In this document: positions 2,320-16,238 of the stretch, piece by piece
Position numbering within the stretch: position 1 is the first letter of the stretch
Layout: every line of letters starts with the position of its first letter
NCBI RefSeq assembly: GCF_000003605.2
Contig: NW_003158226.1
Location: forward strand, 423,678 to 450,825
Direction of reading: 5' to 3'
DNA: 27,148 nucleotides
From: Saccoglossus kowalevskii
Taxonomy: Eukaryota > Hemichordata > Enteropneusta > Harrimaniidae
Translations under genes and position numbers: made by a program
The notes under the pieces: generated by a model
Told to the model about the DNA's origin: nothing
Databases searched by the model: none
Seen by the model: the letters and a program-made list of their open reading frames with translations, nothing else

Positions 2320-4400
2320 TTACCGAGCAAGCACTTGAATTTTGCAAATGTTATCATCGTAAATTGCTAATTCAGCTTCAAATTTTAGTACGAACTTGTA
2401 CAATCTGACTATTTTTACACGTGAGTAATATATGAAATTCATCACCAATAGCCTGTTCATTACATAAAAAACAAAACCTTTGCTCTGGAGGTGCTTTTTT
2501 TTATTGTATCTAAGTTTTTCAATTGGCAACGAGTGAGAAGAAATGTGAAACTTAGTTAAGCTGACTCTTAATATGGTTCAAATTAAAAACTTTGTTTAAA
2601 CTTGTTATAAGTACGTAGTTTATTCTGTTCTGGTTTAAATACATTGGCAACCAGACTATATTATAGTAAATTTGTTTGAATTTGGTTTGAATTCTATAGT
2701 GTTAGATTCATCACTAATTTTAGTTAATTTGAATAATCTTTTATCAAATGCTGTCCAAGATATAACAATTCATTTTATTGTCAGTATTGAAAGCACAGTC
2801 CAGAAGATGATTATTTGTAATTGATTTTAGCCTTTCATAATGCTTCAACATATGTGAACTAATGTCAATAATTAGAGGATAGTTACAAAGTTCAGCTCCA
2901 GCTGCTGCATTGCTGTCCTTATTATTAAAACCTAAAATCTTTTTGCAAAGTTTAATATGGAGTTTGTCATTAAACAGACTTTGAATAAAATTGTCTTCTT
3001 TTATTTTGTTATTTTTTGTTTTAAGAAGTTTGATAGTAAAAGCCCCCCATATCTAAGATCCATATAATAAAACGGGTAGGATTGTACTGCGATATAACTG
3101 AATTGCATTTGTCGGAGAAACGATATAATTTTGTAGGCTAACTGTACCGGTTGCACGCATTGCTTTCTTGACTAGATTATCAATAGCAATTGTAAAATTA
3201 CCACTACTTTGAAAAGTAATACTAAGTAGGTAGGACCTGTTGGTCTCCAAGGTAAAATTTGCCATCTATTTTTCTTCCCCTGTTATTAAAAATAATTAAT
3301 TTTAGTTTTGTTATTTTTGACTCCAAGTATCCATTTGATACAGTAGCTTTTAAACAAATCAAGACTATCTTGTAATCCTGTACTTGTGTTTGAAAAAAAA
3401 ATGACAATGTCATCTGCAAAAAGTAGACAATTAATATTGGTGCCATTAAGACTGACAGGCTCAGATTTTTTAAGACTGTCAGATAGGTCATTCATGTAGA
3501 TGTTAAATAATAATGGGCTTAAGTTGCACCCTTGTTTGTTTAACACCACTAGATGATACAAATGCTTTGGTGCAACCCTGGCCAGTCTTAATAGCATACT
3601 TAGTATTTGAATACATTGATTGAATCAAATTAATACATTTTCCTATCACTCCTGCTTTCCCTAATTTAAATAATAGCCCTTCACGCCAAACACTATCAAA
3701 AGCTTTGCTTAAGTCAACAAAGCAGGCATAAAGATATTTCTTGCCAATGCTATTTGTATATTTATTGATAATTGACTTATGAATGAAGATGTTGTCTGTT
3801 GTCCTCCTATGTAAGAAATCATTATTGTTAAGAACATGTTGAATTCTATTATGAATAAAGCTATTGAAAATTTTAGATGTACCATTAGAAAGGGCTATTC
3901 CCCTGTAATTGATGATATCTGAAATGTTTCCAGATTTGTGAATAGGGAGTATATAACTGCACTCTGCTGGAAAACATCTGATTGAATAGTAATAATTTCA
4001 TTGTTGGTATTTTTTTTATCGAGATCTGGATTAACATTTGATTTTTTGTTCAAGCTGTTGACAGAATATTTAACTTCAGAATCAATCTCTGAATTAGAAT
4101 TTAATGATTGAAATTTAATGATTAACAGTGCTGAAAAATAGTCAGTTCAGTCAGTAGTTTGAATTGGATGTAAATGATTAGTGCTGTTAGCACTATAGAA
4201 CTCTTTAATATTTTAATAGCCTCCCCAAAATCTTTTAGTATTTTTTTCAAGTTTTTTCTCTGCATTCTCAAGTTTTGATCAAATGGAAATTTGTCGAGTT
4301 GCATGCAACTATATTGTTAGCTATCCGTCTAAACTGTTCCTGTGTTGGTAAAACTAATCAATATTATTAAGTGTTTTGGATTAATATTTGACCCTAACCC
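2320..4400 (-). pseudogene. Decayed non-LTR retrotransposon (LINE) with RT domain
   Basis: On the minus strand, high to low coordinates, successive LINE ORF2 blocks can be read in shifting frames. There is a linker with FWGGY and YFSALL near 4070-4260, then RT motifs ILPIHKSGNISDIINYRGIA (about 3890-3960), YACFVDLSKAFDSVWREGLL (about 3680-3735) and QGCNLSPLLFNIYMNDL (about 3480-3540). The catalytic LLFADDIVIF follows (about 3400-3440), then a thumb-like segment with KAMRATGTVS and LYRSTILPVLLYGS (about 3053-3160). The C-terminal tail has HISSHSLPIEKLRY (about 2510-2560) and a Cys/His block RFCFLCNEQAIGDEFHILLTC (about 2410-2475). The last two are typical of CR1/L2-like elements. Frameshifts (for example near 3530) and stops interrupt it throughout, so it is inactive. 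The endonuclease domain was not found and the copy is 5' truncated or too diverged. Confidence 0.88.
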
Positions 4401-9470: not shown

Positions 9471-10169
9471 CAGTACATGTCTCCAGAATATGAAATGAAA
9501 TGATATGTAAATTCTGCATTTCAGACGAACGCCATTGTTGAAATAAACGTCATTCAAAGAAATTGTAGGCTGTGCAAGGGATTAACAGGACTCATTAGCA
9601 TATCCACATCTCCAATAAACACTTGCCCGGGCAAGTAAATTGGGCCTTTAAGAGCCAACAACTCTATTGTTTATGTAACGATTTGCTTCATATGGACGTC
9701 ACCCCCTTTCCCCAATTTTCAGGAACAGGAGGTGGGTTCTCCATTCTACTCCAGATATGCCTTTGACCAGGCTCGGTCTGGATTCCCCGTCCCAGTCAAA
9801 TGTGTCAAAATCCATGCTTAGAAACACCAATTTTTGAATGGAGATTAAAATACGACATTTTGGGTTTATTATGGAACCCAAAAACAGCAGATTATTAATT
9901 GTATGGAATAAGCAAATGTAGAACTCTAATATTTATCTCCTGAATCATAGTAATCAATGATAATTTGTCCTGATACTAAGGCAGATATTTAAGCAATGTT
10001 TTCTGTTAAAAAATTAACGTGCTCTAAAACTTGGTGTGTATGAGCCTTCTTCCATGTTCCTCTCGTGCGCATAAACGATACTTAAATTTACTTCCATGAT
10101 TATGCATATAGCTGGTTATTAGTTATACAATACGAGTCTCTAATTTTGGTTATAATAATTGTATTTTTC
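9471..10169. other. Upstream intergenic or intronic sequence of the GT31 gene
   Basis: No gene is recognised. It holds a perfect 16-base palindrome acttgcccgggcaagt at 9621-9636 and a 60-codon minus frame (9699-9881) without any known domain. If the GT31 gene has an upstream 5' UTR exon, as its acceptor implies, this is intron. Confidence 0.5.
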
Positions 10170-10171
10170 AG
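10158..10171 (+). promoter_or_regulatory. 3' splice acceptor before the GT31 coding exon
   Basis: A short T-rich tract ending in ttgtatttttcag places the acceptor AG at 10170-10171. The exon would start at 10172, nine bases before the ATG, in context caccATGg, which matches the Kozak consensus. The implied gene structure is a spliced 5' UTR followed by one long coding exon. Confidence 0.7.
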
Positions 10172-10180
10172 TGTCTCACC

Positions 10181-13100
10181 ATGGCAGGGCAACGTATTCA
10201 CAGAATATGTGTCTGTTTTGTCGTCCTCTCAGTTGCCGTCATTTGCGTCACATTGATGTTATTTTACAGAGTAAACATGAGGACAACTTTACGGCAATGG
10301 TACTCAAGGGAAGTAGATCAACCAAGTCCAGTAAACGCTGGACATATGTTTGACTATTCTGATTCGAGTACTATTTCCATGGTACAAAAATCGTTATGTA
10401 ATCAAGAAGAAGGAATGTATTTACTCGTAGCAGTATCATCTTCTCTGCAAAACATCGAGCAACGATCAGCAATTCGTAAAACATGGGGGCAAGCCATTGG
10501 AGGGAATAGCATAGTTATATTTATGATTGATCGGTCACGTGACCATTATAATACTGATGACATCATACGTGAAAGTGTAACGTACCATGATATTGTTGAG
10601 TTTGATTTACGTCATGGTGTCAACAATACCACATTGAACACAATATCTATGTTTCAGTGGATATCAAATTATTGCCGGACTACACAATATATACTCAAAG
10701 TTGACGACTCCACCCTAGTACTGCCGGACAATCTATGGTCGTACTTGGAACAACTACCATCCAATAACGTGGCAGCTGGTAGGGCTTTGTTCAACACTAA
10801 ACCTATAAGACAAACTGCAAGCAAATGGTTTGTTTCCTCCGAGCAATGGAATAAAACTACATACCCACCTTACATGGAAGGACCTGCATATCTGTTCTCT
10901 TCCGATGTCGTTATTCGTATTGCTGAAGTGGCAGTCAACATTGAACCATTTCAATTTGAAGATGTCTTCATCGGGATTGTCTTACAAAGATTGAAAGTGA
11001 ACATTACTGATGCTAAGTTGTTTGACACTCGTGGCTACAAGAGAATTCCTTGTGAATTGAAGCATAGTGTGTTGTCTGGGCAACATGCAGCAGATCAAAT
11101 GACACTATTGTGGCACAAGCTGCGTGATAATGTGTGTGATGCCAACAATCATTCTGTGAATCTTCACTTCAACTATACATTTATAACTACTCATTCATCG
11201 AAATGTAGTGAACACCAACCATTCCTTGTTCTCATAACACCATCGTCGACCGAAAAAGACAAAGAAAGAGGAATCCTTAGACAAACTAGAATGCGAAATA
11301 AAGTAGTGCTAGGAAAAAAGATTGTGCACGTATTTCTGATTGGGAAGTCGGATTCCACAGAAGTCAATGCAAATGTTATCAAAGAAAACGAAAAATACGA
11401 TGACATTATTATTGTTGATTTCAATGACACATACGTAAACTTGACATTGAAAACAATAATGATTTTGAAATGGGCAACCTACTTTTGTGTTGATACAACA
11501 TACGTCATGAAAGTTGACGATGACGTATTAGTGAATTTCAAGAATCTCGTGGGAACACTTATCACTGCACCGAGATTTCGTTATGTCCTTGCCGATGTTC
11601 ACAGAAGTGATAAGCCCATTAGAGATAAAAAGATTAAATGGTATATAAGCTTCACAGAATGGCCAAATAATGTTTATCCACCTTACCCCAACGGACCCGC
11701 CTATGTTATGTCACGTGATGTTGCACAAAATATTTACTTATCAGCACGTCAGGAACTATTTCGATTTGAAGACGTCTACGTAGGAATTCAGTTGCAGTCG
11801 CTCGGTATTGTACCAACTCATGACTCGCGGTTCGACAGCATGGGAAAAAAACGTTCTATCTGTGAGTTAAAACAAGTAGTGACGACACACTGGATACACG
11901 GAGATCAAATGGTACGATTGACACGTAATTTAGAAGAATGGGCAGAGTACTTAGAATGTGACGATAATACCCATATTGTCAATGACACTAATATGATTAC
12001 AATAAAAAACGGGCGTGTAATCGGTCTTGAAGTTCAGAAACTCCCAGAATACAACATTTCAGAATTTAATATGAATAATCCTAACACGTGCCATATGTCT
12101 ATTAAGCCCGATTTATTTATAATACAGTGTGTTGTTTCTGCGGCAAAAAACTTTGAACGCAGAAATGCAATTCGTCAATCATGGGGATCGTACACTGGAA
12201 ATGTATCTCGTGGAAGACACATAAAAACTGTTTATTTTGTTGGCGTGGTACATGACAGCGTCACTCAGACGAAACTAAACAATGAAAACAAAACACATGG
12301 CGATATAATTCAGTACAATTTTGTCGAATCCTATGACAATTTAATTTTAAAAACTGTATCGATATTACATTGGGTGTATCATGGATGTCAAAATACTGAC
12401 TACGTTATCAAAATTGATGATGACGTGTTTCTGAATCCTGAAAATATTTTGGACTATTTGACATTTGCAACGAGAAAACAATTGTACATGGGTGATATCA
12501 GGATTGGTACTGGTCCACAACGTGACGAAATAGACAAATTTTACACTCCACGAGAGATCTGGTCTGAATCCACATTTCCGCCATATATTGGTGGCTCTTG
12601 TTATTTGTTGTCCACCGATGTAGCGGTCGACATGTTTAAACTTTTTTCTGATGAACGCAAAGTTTTCAAATGGGAAGATGTTTATATTGGAATGTTAGCT
12701 GAGCAACTGCATATCACGCCCTATCCACATATACAATTTGACATGCATCGGTTGTATCGCTCCGCGTGTACGATCCGATATGCATTAGCATCGCACTATT
12801 TTACGGCAGATATGCACGTAAAATACAGACATTTTCTGCAAAACGATGCAAATCATTGCAAAGATGATCAACCACAAAGACTTAAAGCATCACTGTTGAT
12901 AAATGGACCACATATTGGAGAGGATAGTGCCAGATATGAAAGTCGAAACTATTGGACAGTTCATTCGCAATGTGACTTTTATGAACCCGAAAAGTCATCG
13001 TTTTTTCTAGTTATTTTGATTTTTACCTCACCACAAAATTATGAATATAGAAGGGCGCTACGTTACATTTTAGCCCCAAATGACATCGTGTTTGGACAGC

Positions 13101-16100
13101 GTATTACATACCGTTTTGTTATGGGGGATTCTGTGAAAAGAAGTGAGCACCAAACGATGCTGAACGAAGATGCACTTTACCACGACATTCTACTCGGAAA
13201 ACTTCACGACGGCCTCAATGTTACACTTCAGCACATACATGCATATCATTGGGCAATAGACAAATGCAATGCTTTGAATTATGTCATGAAAACACAAGAT
13301 CACGTTTTTGTTAATATTACCAATGTTGTGAAACACCTAATTAATGCTCCAAGACTGGGTTACATCACTTGTCCTGTGTTGTCTGGTCAGAAACCAATCC
13401 GCGATGAAAACAGCCAGTGGTACGTATCGTCGCGTGAGTGGCCGGAAACTAATTACCCGCCATATTGCAGTAACATGGTCCACATCATTTCAACGGATGT
13501 TGTAAAGAAAGTGATACAGTTTTCCATTTCTGGAGGCAAAGTGTTTAAGTTTCCAGATGTGTATTTAGGAATTGTATTGAAGAAACACGGAATGACGCCA
13601 ATCGACAATAAATTATTCAGCGTTTTAGGTATTAGCAGGTTAGACGACGTGTGCAAGTTTCCTTTAGCTCTCACGTACCGCTTGCCAATTGCAGCATACC
13701 TAACGGAGATTGTTCGAAACATGTTAAAGCAATCACCTAACGAGTGCAACCTTCATATCCCAGATGGAACAATGGTAGTCGCTGATCCCAACAAAAACGT
13801 TGGCAGCACAAATACTATAAGTCAAATCACGAGACATATTGATAAATGNNNNNNNNNNNNNNNNNNNNNNNNNNNNNNNNNNNNNNNNNNNNNNNNNNNN
13901 NNNNNNNNNNNNNNNNNNNNNNNNNNNNNNNNNNNNNNNNNNNNNNNNNNNNNNNNNNNNNNNNNNNNNNNNNNNNNNNNNNNNNNNNNNNNNNNNNNNN
14001 NNNNNNNNNNNNNNNNNNNNNNNNNNNNNNNNNNNNNNNNNNNNNNNNNNNNNNNNNNNNNNNNNNNNNNNNNNNNNNNNNNNNNNNNNNNNNNNNNNNN
14101 NNNNNNNNNNNNNNNNNNNNNNNNNNNNNNNNNNNNNNNNNNNNNNNNNNNNNNNNNNNNNNNNNNNNNNNNNNNNNNNNNNNNNNNNNNNNNNNNNNNN
14201 NNNNNNNNNNNNNNNNNNNNNNNNNNNNNNNNNNNNNNNNNNNNNNNNNNNNNNNNNNNNNNNNNNNNNNNNNNNNNNNNNNNNNNNNNNNNNNNNNNNN
14301 NNNNNNNNNNNNNNNNNNNNNNNNNNNNNNNNNNNNNNNNNNNNNNNNNNNNNNNNNNNNNNNNNNNNNNNNNNNNNNNNNNNNNNNNNNNNNNNNNNNN
14401 NNNNNNNNNNNNNNNNNNNNNNNNNNNNNNNNNNNNNNNNNNNNNNNNNNNNNNNNNNNNNNNNNNNNNNNNNNNNNNNNNNNNNNNNNNNNNNNNNNNN
14501 NNNNNNNNNNNNNNNNNNNNNNNNNNNNNNNNNNNNNNNNNNNNNNNNNNNNNNNNNNNNNNNNNNNNNNNNNNNNNNNNNNNNNATGATTTCAATTTTC
14601 TGATTACTAATGAAAACGTTTGTCGCAATCTCGTCATAGAATCGATATGATGTTGTCGTCATAAGCTCACCTGGTAACTTCTTGAGAAGACGTGCGATAA
14701 GAGATACATGGTATGCACATGAAAAGTCATTCCCCCATTTTGAAATAATTACTATGTTTTTGGTGGGAAACACACATGATGTAAATTTACAGAGGCGAAT
14801 TTTGACTGAGAATATCCGATTCAACGATATTATTCAAACCGCGCACCATGACAGCTATGCAAACCTGACTTTAAAAACTGTCATGTTGTTGAAATGGACA
14901 TCAATATATTGTTCTACAGCAACTTACGTCATGAAAGTTGATGACGATGTGTTTGTTAACTTTGATAACCTGGTAGCGGTGTTTAGGGAAACCCCATTGA
15001 CGGGTGTCTATTACGGCCGAACTTATTTCAGGCAACCAGTCGAACGGAATCCCAAACATAAGAATTATACCCCGTATGATATGTGGCCTCACCATGTGTT
15101 CCCCCCTTACAACGCTGGACCTTGCTATATTATGTCAATGGATGTTGCTAACAAAGTATATAACGCTTCATTTAATGAAAAAAATAATTCAAACGAGGAT
15201 GTATTTATTGGTATAATGGCACAGAATGTGGGTATAACACCACAACGCGACGAGCGATTTGATATAACGAGCACAACAAAATATTTGTGCGGCATTCGTG
15301 ACGTCATAGCTATTCATAAAACTCAGCCAGGTGACCTTTATCGCTATTGGTATAAATTCCATTATTTTAAAGATATCGTCTGTAATAAAAACGGGTCTCA
15401 ACATCGGGAAAATTCAACTTTTTTATACCCGGGAAAACCCGTCATATCATCGGTCTTAAATTTTTATTCGACCCCTGAAGTTTGTGTTAAACCAGATTCA
15501 GTTAATGACGTGATACTTGTTCTAATTGCAAGTCGTCCTGGAAATGTTAATGCACGAAATGCGATACGAAACACATGGGGACAGTTTTATGATGGACTTG
15601 GATTTAGCATTGTATGTCTGTTTTTTGTTGGTAAGACTCAGAATGTGACTGAACAGAACTTAATGACACAGGAAGCTAGTTCACATAACGATATCGTCAT
15701 TGCTCAATTTCTGGACCATTCATATAACGAGACTATTAAAACCATCGCTATGTTTCGTTGGGTAGCTGTTTATTGTACAGAAGCTAATTACGTAATCAGA
15801 ACAAATGATGCGTCATATTTGCTTTATAATAATATATTACCATACTTACGAAATTCAGCTCCAAAATCTAACCTGATAGCTGGCAATGTTCTCCAATTAA
15901 AAGAACCAGATAGAAATGTAAAAAGTGATTCATACACTCCGTACGACGTTTGGCCACATAAGGTCTTTCCCACGTATGTAGAAGGACCAACCTATATCAT
16001 GACTATTGATGTAGTAAGGAGGTTATGGAATGCTGCTCAAGAGACGTCTCCTTTACTGTGGGAAGATGTCCACGTAGGTCATCTCTTACAGAAAGCAAAT

Positions 16101-16238
16101 ATAGTGCCAACAAACTTACAAGCGTTTAGCGATGCAAGTCACTGCAAATATAGTAACTTATTCGCAGTAACATATCTTACTCCCAATCAAATGTTGTCAT
16201 CATTTCAGAGTCATCGATATGATTATGATGACTGCTGA
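10181..16238 (+). CDS. Poly-GT31 glycosyltransferase (beta-1,3-galactosyltransferase-like), six visible tandem modules plus one probably in the gap
   Basis: Type II Golgi-type membrane protein predicted to transfer Gal or GlcNAc in beta-1,3 linkage from UDP-sugars. The ATG has a strong Kozak context. Residues 1-8 are cytosolic, about 9-29 form a signal anchor, then comes a short stem. GT31 modules each open with a Cys (C73, C342, C637, C931, a TGN codon at 1223, then TGT at 14621 and 15483) spaced 269, 295, 294, 292, 258 and 287 codons. Within each module the family order is seen: R-AIR-TW, F-VG, an NLTLKT-type helix, DXD, (Y/F)PPY..GP.Y and EDV(Y/F).G. GT31 enzymes usually have one such module in 300-400 residues, so about 2018 residues with seven modules is exceptional. 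The frame crosses an N gap (13849-14585) and breaks by one base near 14648. Substrate cannot be told. It may be annotated elsewhere as two genes split at the gap. Confidence 0.9.
10397..11203 (+). other. GT31 module 1, altered metal site (DDS)
   Basis: Residues 73-341. Visible motifs are SAIRKTWG (96-103), KVDDSTLV with DDS at 175-177 in place of DDD, YPPYMEGPAY (228-237) and FEDVFIG (E260, D261). The fold motifs are well kept, but the last Asp of DXD, which contacts the metal in GT-A enzymes, is Ser. Reduced or absent catalysis is inferred. Spacing to module 2 (269 codons) is the shortest among modules not affected by the gap. Confidence 0.8.
11204..12088 (+). other. GT31 module 2, DXD intact
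   Basis: Residues 342-636. KVDDDVLVN has DDD at 446-448, YPPYPNGPAY starts at 499, FEDVYVG has E530 and D531, and NLTLKT is present before the DXD. The early AIR-TW motif has decayed to GILRQTR, losing the Trp. Metal and base residues are all present, so it may still be catalytic. Confidence 0.82.
12089..12970 (+). other. GT31 module 3, most canonical module
   Basis: Residues 637-930. RRNAIRQSWG, VYFVG, KIDDDVFLN (DDD 746-748), FPPYIGGSCY (from 799) and WEDVYIG (E832, D833) are all close to the family consensus. It is the best candidate for an active beta-1,3-glycosyltransferase centre in the chain. Confidence 0.85.
12971..13846 (+). other. GT31 module 4, degenerate active site (QDH, PDV)
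   Basis: Residues 931-1222. All the main motifs are altered: RRALRYILA replaces RxAIRxTWG, QDH (1039-1041) replaces DDD, YPPYCSNMVH (from 1092) loses the GP.Y part, and FPDVYLG (P1125) loses the Glu of EDV. The reading frame and fold signature stay intact, which suggests a retained non-catalytic or sugar-binding role rather than pseudogene decay. That role is inference. Confidence 0.8.
13849..14585. other. Assembly gap (737 N)
   Basis: The run of N begins two bases into a TGN codon (Cys or Trp) that falls 292 codons after the opening Cys of module 4, exactly where a new module should open. The next opening Cys is at 14621, 258 codons later. The gap therefore most likely hides one whole GT31 module (number 5). 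Its stated length may be an estimate. Open frames running through the N are artefacts. Confidence 0.95.
14621..15482 (+). other. GT31 module 6, DXD intact, with a one-base frame break at its start
   Basis: After the gap, NENVCRNLVIESI is read in the upstream frame and meets TGA at 14648. Skipping one T near 14648 continues as DVVVISSPGNFLRRRAIRDT, the normal family start. Later motifs are FLVG, NLTLKT, KVDDDVFVN (DDD at 14940-14948), FPPYNAGPCY (from 15099) and NEDVFIG (Glu at 15195). Metal and base residues are present. Nearness to the gap makes a sequencing error the simplest explanation for the break. Confidence 0.82.
15483..16238 (+). other. GT31 module 7 (C-terminal), altered metal site (NDA)
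   Basis: It opens with CVKPDSVNDVILVLIASRPG, then ARNAIRNTWG, LFFVG, RTNDASYLL with NDA (15804-15812) in place of DDD, FPTYVEGPTY (from 15966) and WEDVHVG (Glu at 16062). The chain ends in YDYDDC and a TGA at 16236-16238. The early motifs are well kept, but both Asp residues flanking the central D of the DXD site are lost. Confidence 0.8.

Follow-up and report, generated by a model that had tools for sequence, protein, structure and literature searches.

Animal glycosyltransferases are normally single- or two-domain enzymes of the Golgi whose partners meet in trans, and B3GALT5 and B3GNT2 of family GT31 carry one catalytic domain per protein. The same family holds two precedents for a dead partner (here and below, papers cited by PMC number are drawn on as excerpts): COSMC (C1GALT1C1), a GT31 domain without the DxD and xED motifs, is a scaffold or chaperone of the active GT31 enzyme C1GALT1 (PMC7185993), and CHPF, which is without DxD, has a stabilising role for CHSY3 (PMC12748766). 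Here we analyse a 27,148-nucleotide stretch of the genome of the hemichordate Saccoglossus kowalevskii (RefSeq assembly GCF_000003605.2, contig NW_003158226.1, forward-strand positions 423,678 to 450,825), hereafter the window (C4725:423678-450825 within the 572-Mb assembly), in which a chain of tandem GT31 modules is encoded between positions 10181 and 16238. We refer to this chain as W and to its modules as m1 to m7. Our results show that the gene is real and belongs to a small family of poly-GT31 genes, and the finding is a new architecture of the known family GT31, not a new family. No description of a poly-GT31 enzyme appeared among the literature matches listed, as far as their titles and the starts of their abstracts go.

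All six matches to PF01762 (Pfam Galactosyl_T) in the window lie above the curated cut-off of 23 bits, with four stretches in 10181-13846 (E 1.1e-158, 525 bits) and two in 14655-16235 (E 8.7e-85, 283.9 bits). This bears out the central claim of an earlier, sequence-only reading of this DNA, namely that GT31 modules stand in tandem behind one hydrophobic N-terminal segment. The same reading had placed them in a single open frame from 10181 to 16238, which does not hold, as 737 N interrupt the sequence at 13849-14585 and the reading frame changes beyond them. From 14591, a run of 19 codons, including the opening Cys of m6, leads to a stop (Table 1), m6 resumes in the frame of 14592 as 'YDVVVISSPGNF...', and the post-gap module frame at 14655-16238 holds two modules. 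The opening Cys residues are spaced by 269, 295, and 294 codons, then by 550 across the gap, and then by 287.3, a non-integer value that also shows the frameshift. The previously given range of 269-295 codons is confirmed by these values, and a further figure of 258 across the gap falls away, as it seems to depend on a TG at 13847 that is followed by N in the third codon position and does not show a Cys. The window frame to the left of the gap would arise by chance with a probability of ~1e-37, calculated from its own base composition.

The claim of about seven modules stands for the six that are seen, and the seventh, m5, we infer from a gap of estimated size. Measured between hidden Markov model (HMM) starts, m4 and m6 lie 553 residues apart in chain B, which has no gap, and 624 apart in chain A, and the corresponding Cys-to-Cys distance in the window is 550 codons, so that the gap holds room for one module. 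The window's own module 5 was not apparent elsewhere in the assembly in a search with m5 of chain A as the query, in which the best candidates were scored and the best other match was to chain B, at 40%.

There are a total of 64 PF01762 matches in the assembly, and by our own count, 34 of these fall in eight multi-module frames, including that of the window. The other seven, chains A to G, are listed in Table 1 with module counts from Pfam and from a module HMM built from the window modules and then from the genome's own modules; one module of chain A was matched in two pieces. Judged from base composition, the chance of open frames of these lengths runs from ~1e-17 (G) to 2e-60 (A). Chains A, C, and D lie within ~100 kb of one another on one contig. 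Membrane anchors were judged from hydropathy means of 20-residue segments against a threshold. The N-terminal hydrophobic segment is strong in W, A, C, D, E, and F and weaker in G, and a signal anchor is clear in six of the seven chains with at least three modules. The N-terminal segment is the sole one over the threshold in A, C, D, and F and in W as far as the gap, so that the later modules there lack a separate anchor; in chain E, two weaker hydrophobic segments lie inside modules. By this measure, the window protein is a probable type II membrane protein held by its N-terminal signal anchor. One further locus in the assembly, L038:1340-3007 (C2387), is a GT31-like fragment with 162 N and a divergent second part and, as far as seen, is not the same kind of chain.

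For human B3GNT2, the residues D245 and D247 (the outer Asp of DxD), D333 (the base), and H376 (printed as His356 in one place of the source) bind the donor or the metal or act as the base, and the substitutions D245A and D333A each lower kcat/Km more than 10,000-fold (PMC7948508). Modules were aligned to these four residues, and Asp or Glu was accepted at both outer DxD places. Retention of the set is bound to position in the chain: all ten chain modules at positions 3 and 6 have the four residues, compared with 1 of 24 at the other assigned positions (m2 of the window) and none of the 17 at positions 1, 4, 5, and 7. The Fisher p for this pattern is 8e-8, which is not an independent test because the position numbers of chains B and F were offset by one after the motifs and the tree had been seen; in the five chains without an offset, the counts are 7 of 7 at positions 3 and 6 versus 1 of 18 elsewhere. 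In chain G, a module that keeps the complete set precedes one that keeps none of it, and the pair may represent a minimal unit of an active and a dead domain. Altogether, 24 of the 36 chain modules are without the full set. Among the single-domain genes, 16 of 21 keep all four residues, and of the remaining five, three have nothing aligned to the His. The single-domain gene at L040:1802-3205 (C1217), which has KDN replacing DxD and stands beside an intact neighbour, is another possible stand-alone pseudo-enzyme, to judge from its motif.

Within the window, the residue set of metal-dependent GT31 enzymes (D-x-D, xED base, C-terminal His) is present in m2, m3, and m6 and incomplete in m1, m4, and m7, where two (S, G), three (Q, H, R), and three (N, A, T) of the four residues are lost, respectively. 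The sequence-only reading had seen the complete GT31 motif order in each module, and this is contradicted by the loss of outer DxD residues and of the C-terminal His in these three. The structural models of m3 and m4 both match B3GalT5 (TMq 0.82-0.87) and B3GNT2, corresponding to a GT-A fold of the beta-1,3-glycosyltransferase type. Each model was made from an alignment of the window's six modules only, all six in each, and the model of the degenerate m4 may lean on its active sister modules.

The history of the modules follows the same positions. A maximum-likelihood tree was built from 57 modules, 36 from chains and 21 from single-domain genes, with five short fragments excluded. On this tree, m3 of W, A, C, D, and E groups with m2 of B and F (position 3), m6 of W and A groups with m5 of B (position 6), and m5 of A groups with m4 of B (support 100/99). 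Position labels require 10 changes (34 modules, seven chains), whereas 500 label shuffles within chains never gave fewer than 17 and averaged 21.8; for the five chains without an offset, 9 changes are required and the shuffles gave at least 11, with an average of 16.1. Chain labels require 27 changes on the same tree. Forcing all modules of one chain into a single clade was rejected by the approximately unbiased (AU) test for both W (p-AU 1e-5) and A (p-AU 8e-16). A recent local duplication inside the window gene is ruled out by the former value and by the identities among the window modules, which are 26-36%. At position 4, 'RL(T/S)W' stands in place of the usual R-x-T-W in six of seven chains, the window being the exception. 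The tree has long branches and resolves few of the modules at positions 2 and 4, and several position forks are open or moderate; homology of the modules by position across chains is firm as a whole and less firm fork by fork. As the modules group by position rather than by chain, the simplest reading is that an ancestral chain was probably duplicated as a whole, with older internal duplications.

The best reading of these data as a whole, to which we give a probability of roughly 0.6, is a poly-GT31 family with position-bound active sites and pseudo-enzyme modules that help in cis. A signal anchor would be followed by three to seven GT31 domains of GT-A fold in the Golgi lumen, and the protein would transfer sugars in beta-1,3 linkage with inversion, at one to three active sites. 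These would lie at positions 3 and 6, and also in m2 of the window, where the donor-binding Asp, the metal-binding Asp and His, and the catalytic-base Asp are kept. The modules at the other positions, where part or all of this set is gone, would be pseudo-enzymes whose frames are still open and, in the case of m4, whose fold is predicted to be intact. These pseudo-modules may work in cis as COSMC and CHPF do in trans, holding, folding, or stabilising the active modules and perhaps binding the acceptor glycan, an arrangement that would keep the active sites engaged with a repeated or multivalent acceptor. The two dead-partner precedents inside GT31 are the reason for proposing helpers fused in cis to one to three active transferases; the gene family, the homology by position, and the position-bound pattern of residues are shown, and the Golgi location, the beta-1,3 linkage, and what the dead modules do are inferred.

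Several points weigh against this proposal. It is drawn from the genome sequence of one species, and the window copy, with its gap and frameshift, could be broken. Chain B has no N-terminal segment over the hydropathy threshold and has one at its C-terminus (residue 1760), and its predicted topology may differ from that of the other chains. Three of the modules without the full residue set (A m4, B m3, and E m4) have nothing aligned at the His, and the count is therefore partly dependent on the alignment. A module without DxD need not be inactive, as some GT-A enzymes work independently of metal, Gcnt1 being an example (PMC7948508). On the tree, a pair of W m3 and W m6 is not rejected (p-AU 0.146), the fork of position 3 has a support of 85/92 and also includes m1 of chain G and the single-domain genes L041 + and L044, and the fork of position 6 has a support of 91/92; the post hoc offset of chains B and F applies here as well. 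Identity of the best pairwise match is weak as a test of homology by position: m1 of the window ties between m1 and m3 of chain A at 32%, and m2, m4, and m6 of the window have their best match in chain A at another position. Finally, the nonsynonymous proportion of differences (pN) is below the synonymous one (pS) in 14 matched module pairs (pN 0.34-0.53, pS 0.71-0.92), which says little because synonymous sites are saturated; codon-shuffled controls for three pairs were nearly equal to the data (mean pN 0.53-0.55 versus 0.47-0.50 observed, pS about equal). The argument for selection on the pseudo-modules rests on the open frames and the position-bound residue pattern.

The alternative that survives best, though improbable, holds that only m3 and m6 matter and that the degenerate modules are decaying leftovers of unequal duplication, whose frames persist by chance or because a stop in them would truncate the protein ahead of the active modules. 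It is consistent with the longest end branches of the tree falling on degenerate modules (e.g., 3.84, 3.48, and 3.13), with the need for upstream dead modules to stay open if a downstream active module is to be made, and with the lack of support from pN/pS for constraint on degenerate modules. However, module 7 of W, A, and B and the position 4 modules of C, D, E, and F come after the last active module and are open all the same, degeneration goes with position from chain to chain, and position 4 has the signature of its own described above.

Somewhat more doubtful is the idea that the family is real and the window copy is a pseudogene. The frame does change between 14591-14650 and 14655 onwards, and the frameshift near 14650 is either a sequencing error or a real mutation. 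Against a pseudogene, the break lies within ~65 bases of the edge of the assembly gap, where assembly errors are common, m6 and m7 are open for 527 codons from the break to the stop, and m6 keeps all four residues. We regard as comparably doubtful a processive glycan polymerase or decorator, in which two or three active beta-1,3 sites (m3, m6, and sometimes m2) would differ in specificity and the pseudo-glycosyltransferase modules would act as glycan-binding rulers at fixed distances; such a protein, made from one domain family, would correspond within a single molecule to the pair of chondroitin synthase and CHPF.

Less credible again is the idea that every module is active and that the chain adds successive sugars as an assembly line, the modules without DxD working without metal. 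The six window modules share 22 invariant columns, m2, m3, and m6 have an intact catalytic set, and Gcnt1 offers the precedent for metal independence noted above. In the other direction, loss of the outer DxD residues goes along with loss of the C-terminal His and at times of the base, two-thirds of the chain modules (24/36) being without the full set, COSMC without both motifs is inactive (PMC7185993), and the DxD-less CHPF has a stabilising role (PMC12748766). The sequence-only reading had offered either an assembly line or a scaffold; of these, a seven-step assembly line is unlikely, and a scaffold fits better.

The remaining explanation, separate single-domain tandem genes read through by chance or a misassembly, draws on the 737-N gap with its adjacent frameshift and on the other GT31 frames fetched from this genome, which mostly have one domain, but it is very improbable and largely refuted by the seven other multi-module frames in the same assembly, including a gap-free seven-module frame of 2096 codons, by chance probabilities of ~3e-26 to 2e-60 for the six gap-free frames A to F with their three to seven modules, and by later modules without an anchor of their own.

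Table 1. Features of the window gene (positions in the window) and the other multi-module GT31 frames of the assembly.
Feature	Position	Strand	Remarks
Possible 3' splice acceptor tttttcag	10164..10171	+	Sequence read directly; 9 bases before ATG
Open frame from ATG, N-terminal chain part, modules 1-4	10181..13848	+	1222 codons
Hydrophobic segment, probable signal anchor	10205..10264	+	Residues 9-28, mean Kyte-Doolittle 3.04
Module 1, probable pseudo-enzyme	10391..11104	+	DDS; C-terminal His replaced by G
Module 2	11198..11914	+	Four catalytic/metal residues kept: DDD, ED, H
Module 3	12083..12820	+	Four kept; AlphaFold2 (AF2) predicted local distance difference test (pLDDT) 83.2; nearest solved fold B3GalT5
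Module 4, probable pseudo-enzyme	12965..13702	+	QDH, PD, R; predicted fold intact, pLDDT 80.2
Assembly gap, place of inferred module 5	13849..14585	no strand	737 N
Module 6 start	14591..14650	+	NENVCRNLVIESI, then stop 14648-14650; frame one base off from the rest
Module 6	14655..15341	+	Four catalytic/metal residues kept
Module 7, probable pseudo-enzyme	15477..16196	+	NDA; C-terminal His replaced by T
Stop codon TGA	16236..16238	+	
Chain A	C3684:146 kb		2096 codons gap-free (stop to stop); Pfam 7, module HMM 7
Chain B	C4357		1791 codons gap-free (stop to stop); Pfam 6, module HMM 6
Chain C	C3684:70 kb		1341 codons gap-free (stop to stop); Pfam 4, module HMM 4
Chain D	C3684:58 kb		1266 codons gap-free (stop to stop); Pfam 3, module HMM 4
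Chain E	C54		1237 codons gap-free (stop to stop); Pfam 4, module HMM 4
Chain F	C2040		973 codons gap-free (stop to stop); Pfam 3, module HMM 3
Chain G	C2180		607 codons gap-free (stop to stop); module HMM 2

The acceptor-like motif so close to the ATG of the window gene suggests an intron in its 5' untranslated region. Farther upstream, broken frames on the minus strand at 2747-3997 have the reverse-transcriptase-like motifs FADDIVIFF and CFVDLSKAFDSVW, recognised by eye, and are probably a decayed retrotransposon of the type without long terminal repeats (non-LTR). An Rfam scan of the window gave nothing at the gathering threshold. Elsewhere in the assembly, gene order and genetic code of the mitochondrial contig C4830 (17,037 bases) point to S. 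kowalevskii or a near relative as the likely source. With genes named by eye, COX1 is inverted, a gene read as ND2 stands between the rRNA region and ND1, and an inverted ND6 separates CYTB from tRNA-Phe; within COX1, ATA occurs where Ile is conserved and the single AAA where Lys is conserved. An inverted COX1, a transposed ND1 or ND2, AUA for Ile, and AAA for Lys are described for S. kowalevskii (PMC3121625). A search for phage relatives with m3, the only query, gave no match, and among viral contigs, one peptide pattern gave eight stretches, none of which was a relative by tblastn.

A family that fuses up to seven GT31 domains is a natural experiment on the role of pseudo-glycosyltransferases and on the spacing of GT-A domains on one chain. 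Joined glycosyltransferase domains are also found outside GT31, and COLGALT, for instance, belongs to another CAZy family. LARGE1/2 and COLGALT1/2 resemble the poly-GT31 chains in being animal proteins that carry a tandem pair of GT-A domains (PMC7185993), but they stop at two domains, belong to other CAZy families, and do not have seven homologous domains in a chain. A111/114R of PBCV-1 likewise combines several glycosyltransferase functions in one polypeptide; it differs in being viral and in having three functions, a comparison made by description only (PMC7826918). In family, fold, and catalytic residues, m2, m3, and m6 of the window are like B3GALT5 and B3GNT2, which are the best matches in PDB by both sequence and fold, whereas here three to seven domains stand in one frame, many of them without catalytic residues. 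A parallel in organisation is CHSY1/3 with CHPF/CHPF2, Golgi proteins that have GT31 domains and a single transmembrane helix and whose active and inactive subunits pair, the inactive ones being stabilising (PMC12748766); their subunits combine GT31 with GT7, two domains a chain, whereas the poly-GT31 chains consist of GT31 only. COSMC and C1GALT1 are separate proteins, unlike the pseudo and active domains described here, which are joined in one chain with several of each. The question raised by COSMC and CHPF, namely what a dead partner does, could be tested in this family by trimming the modules of one protein.

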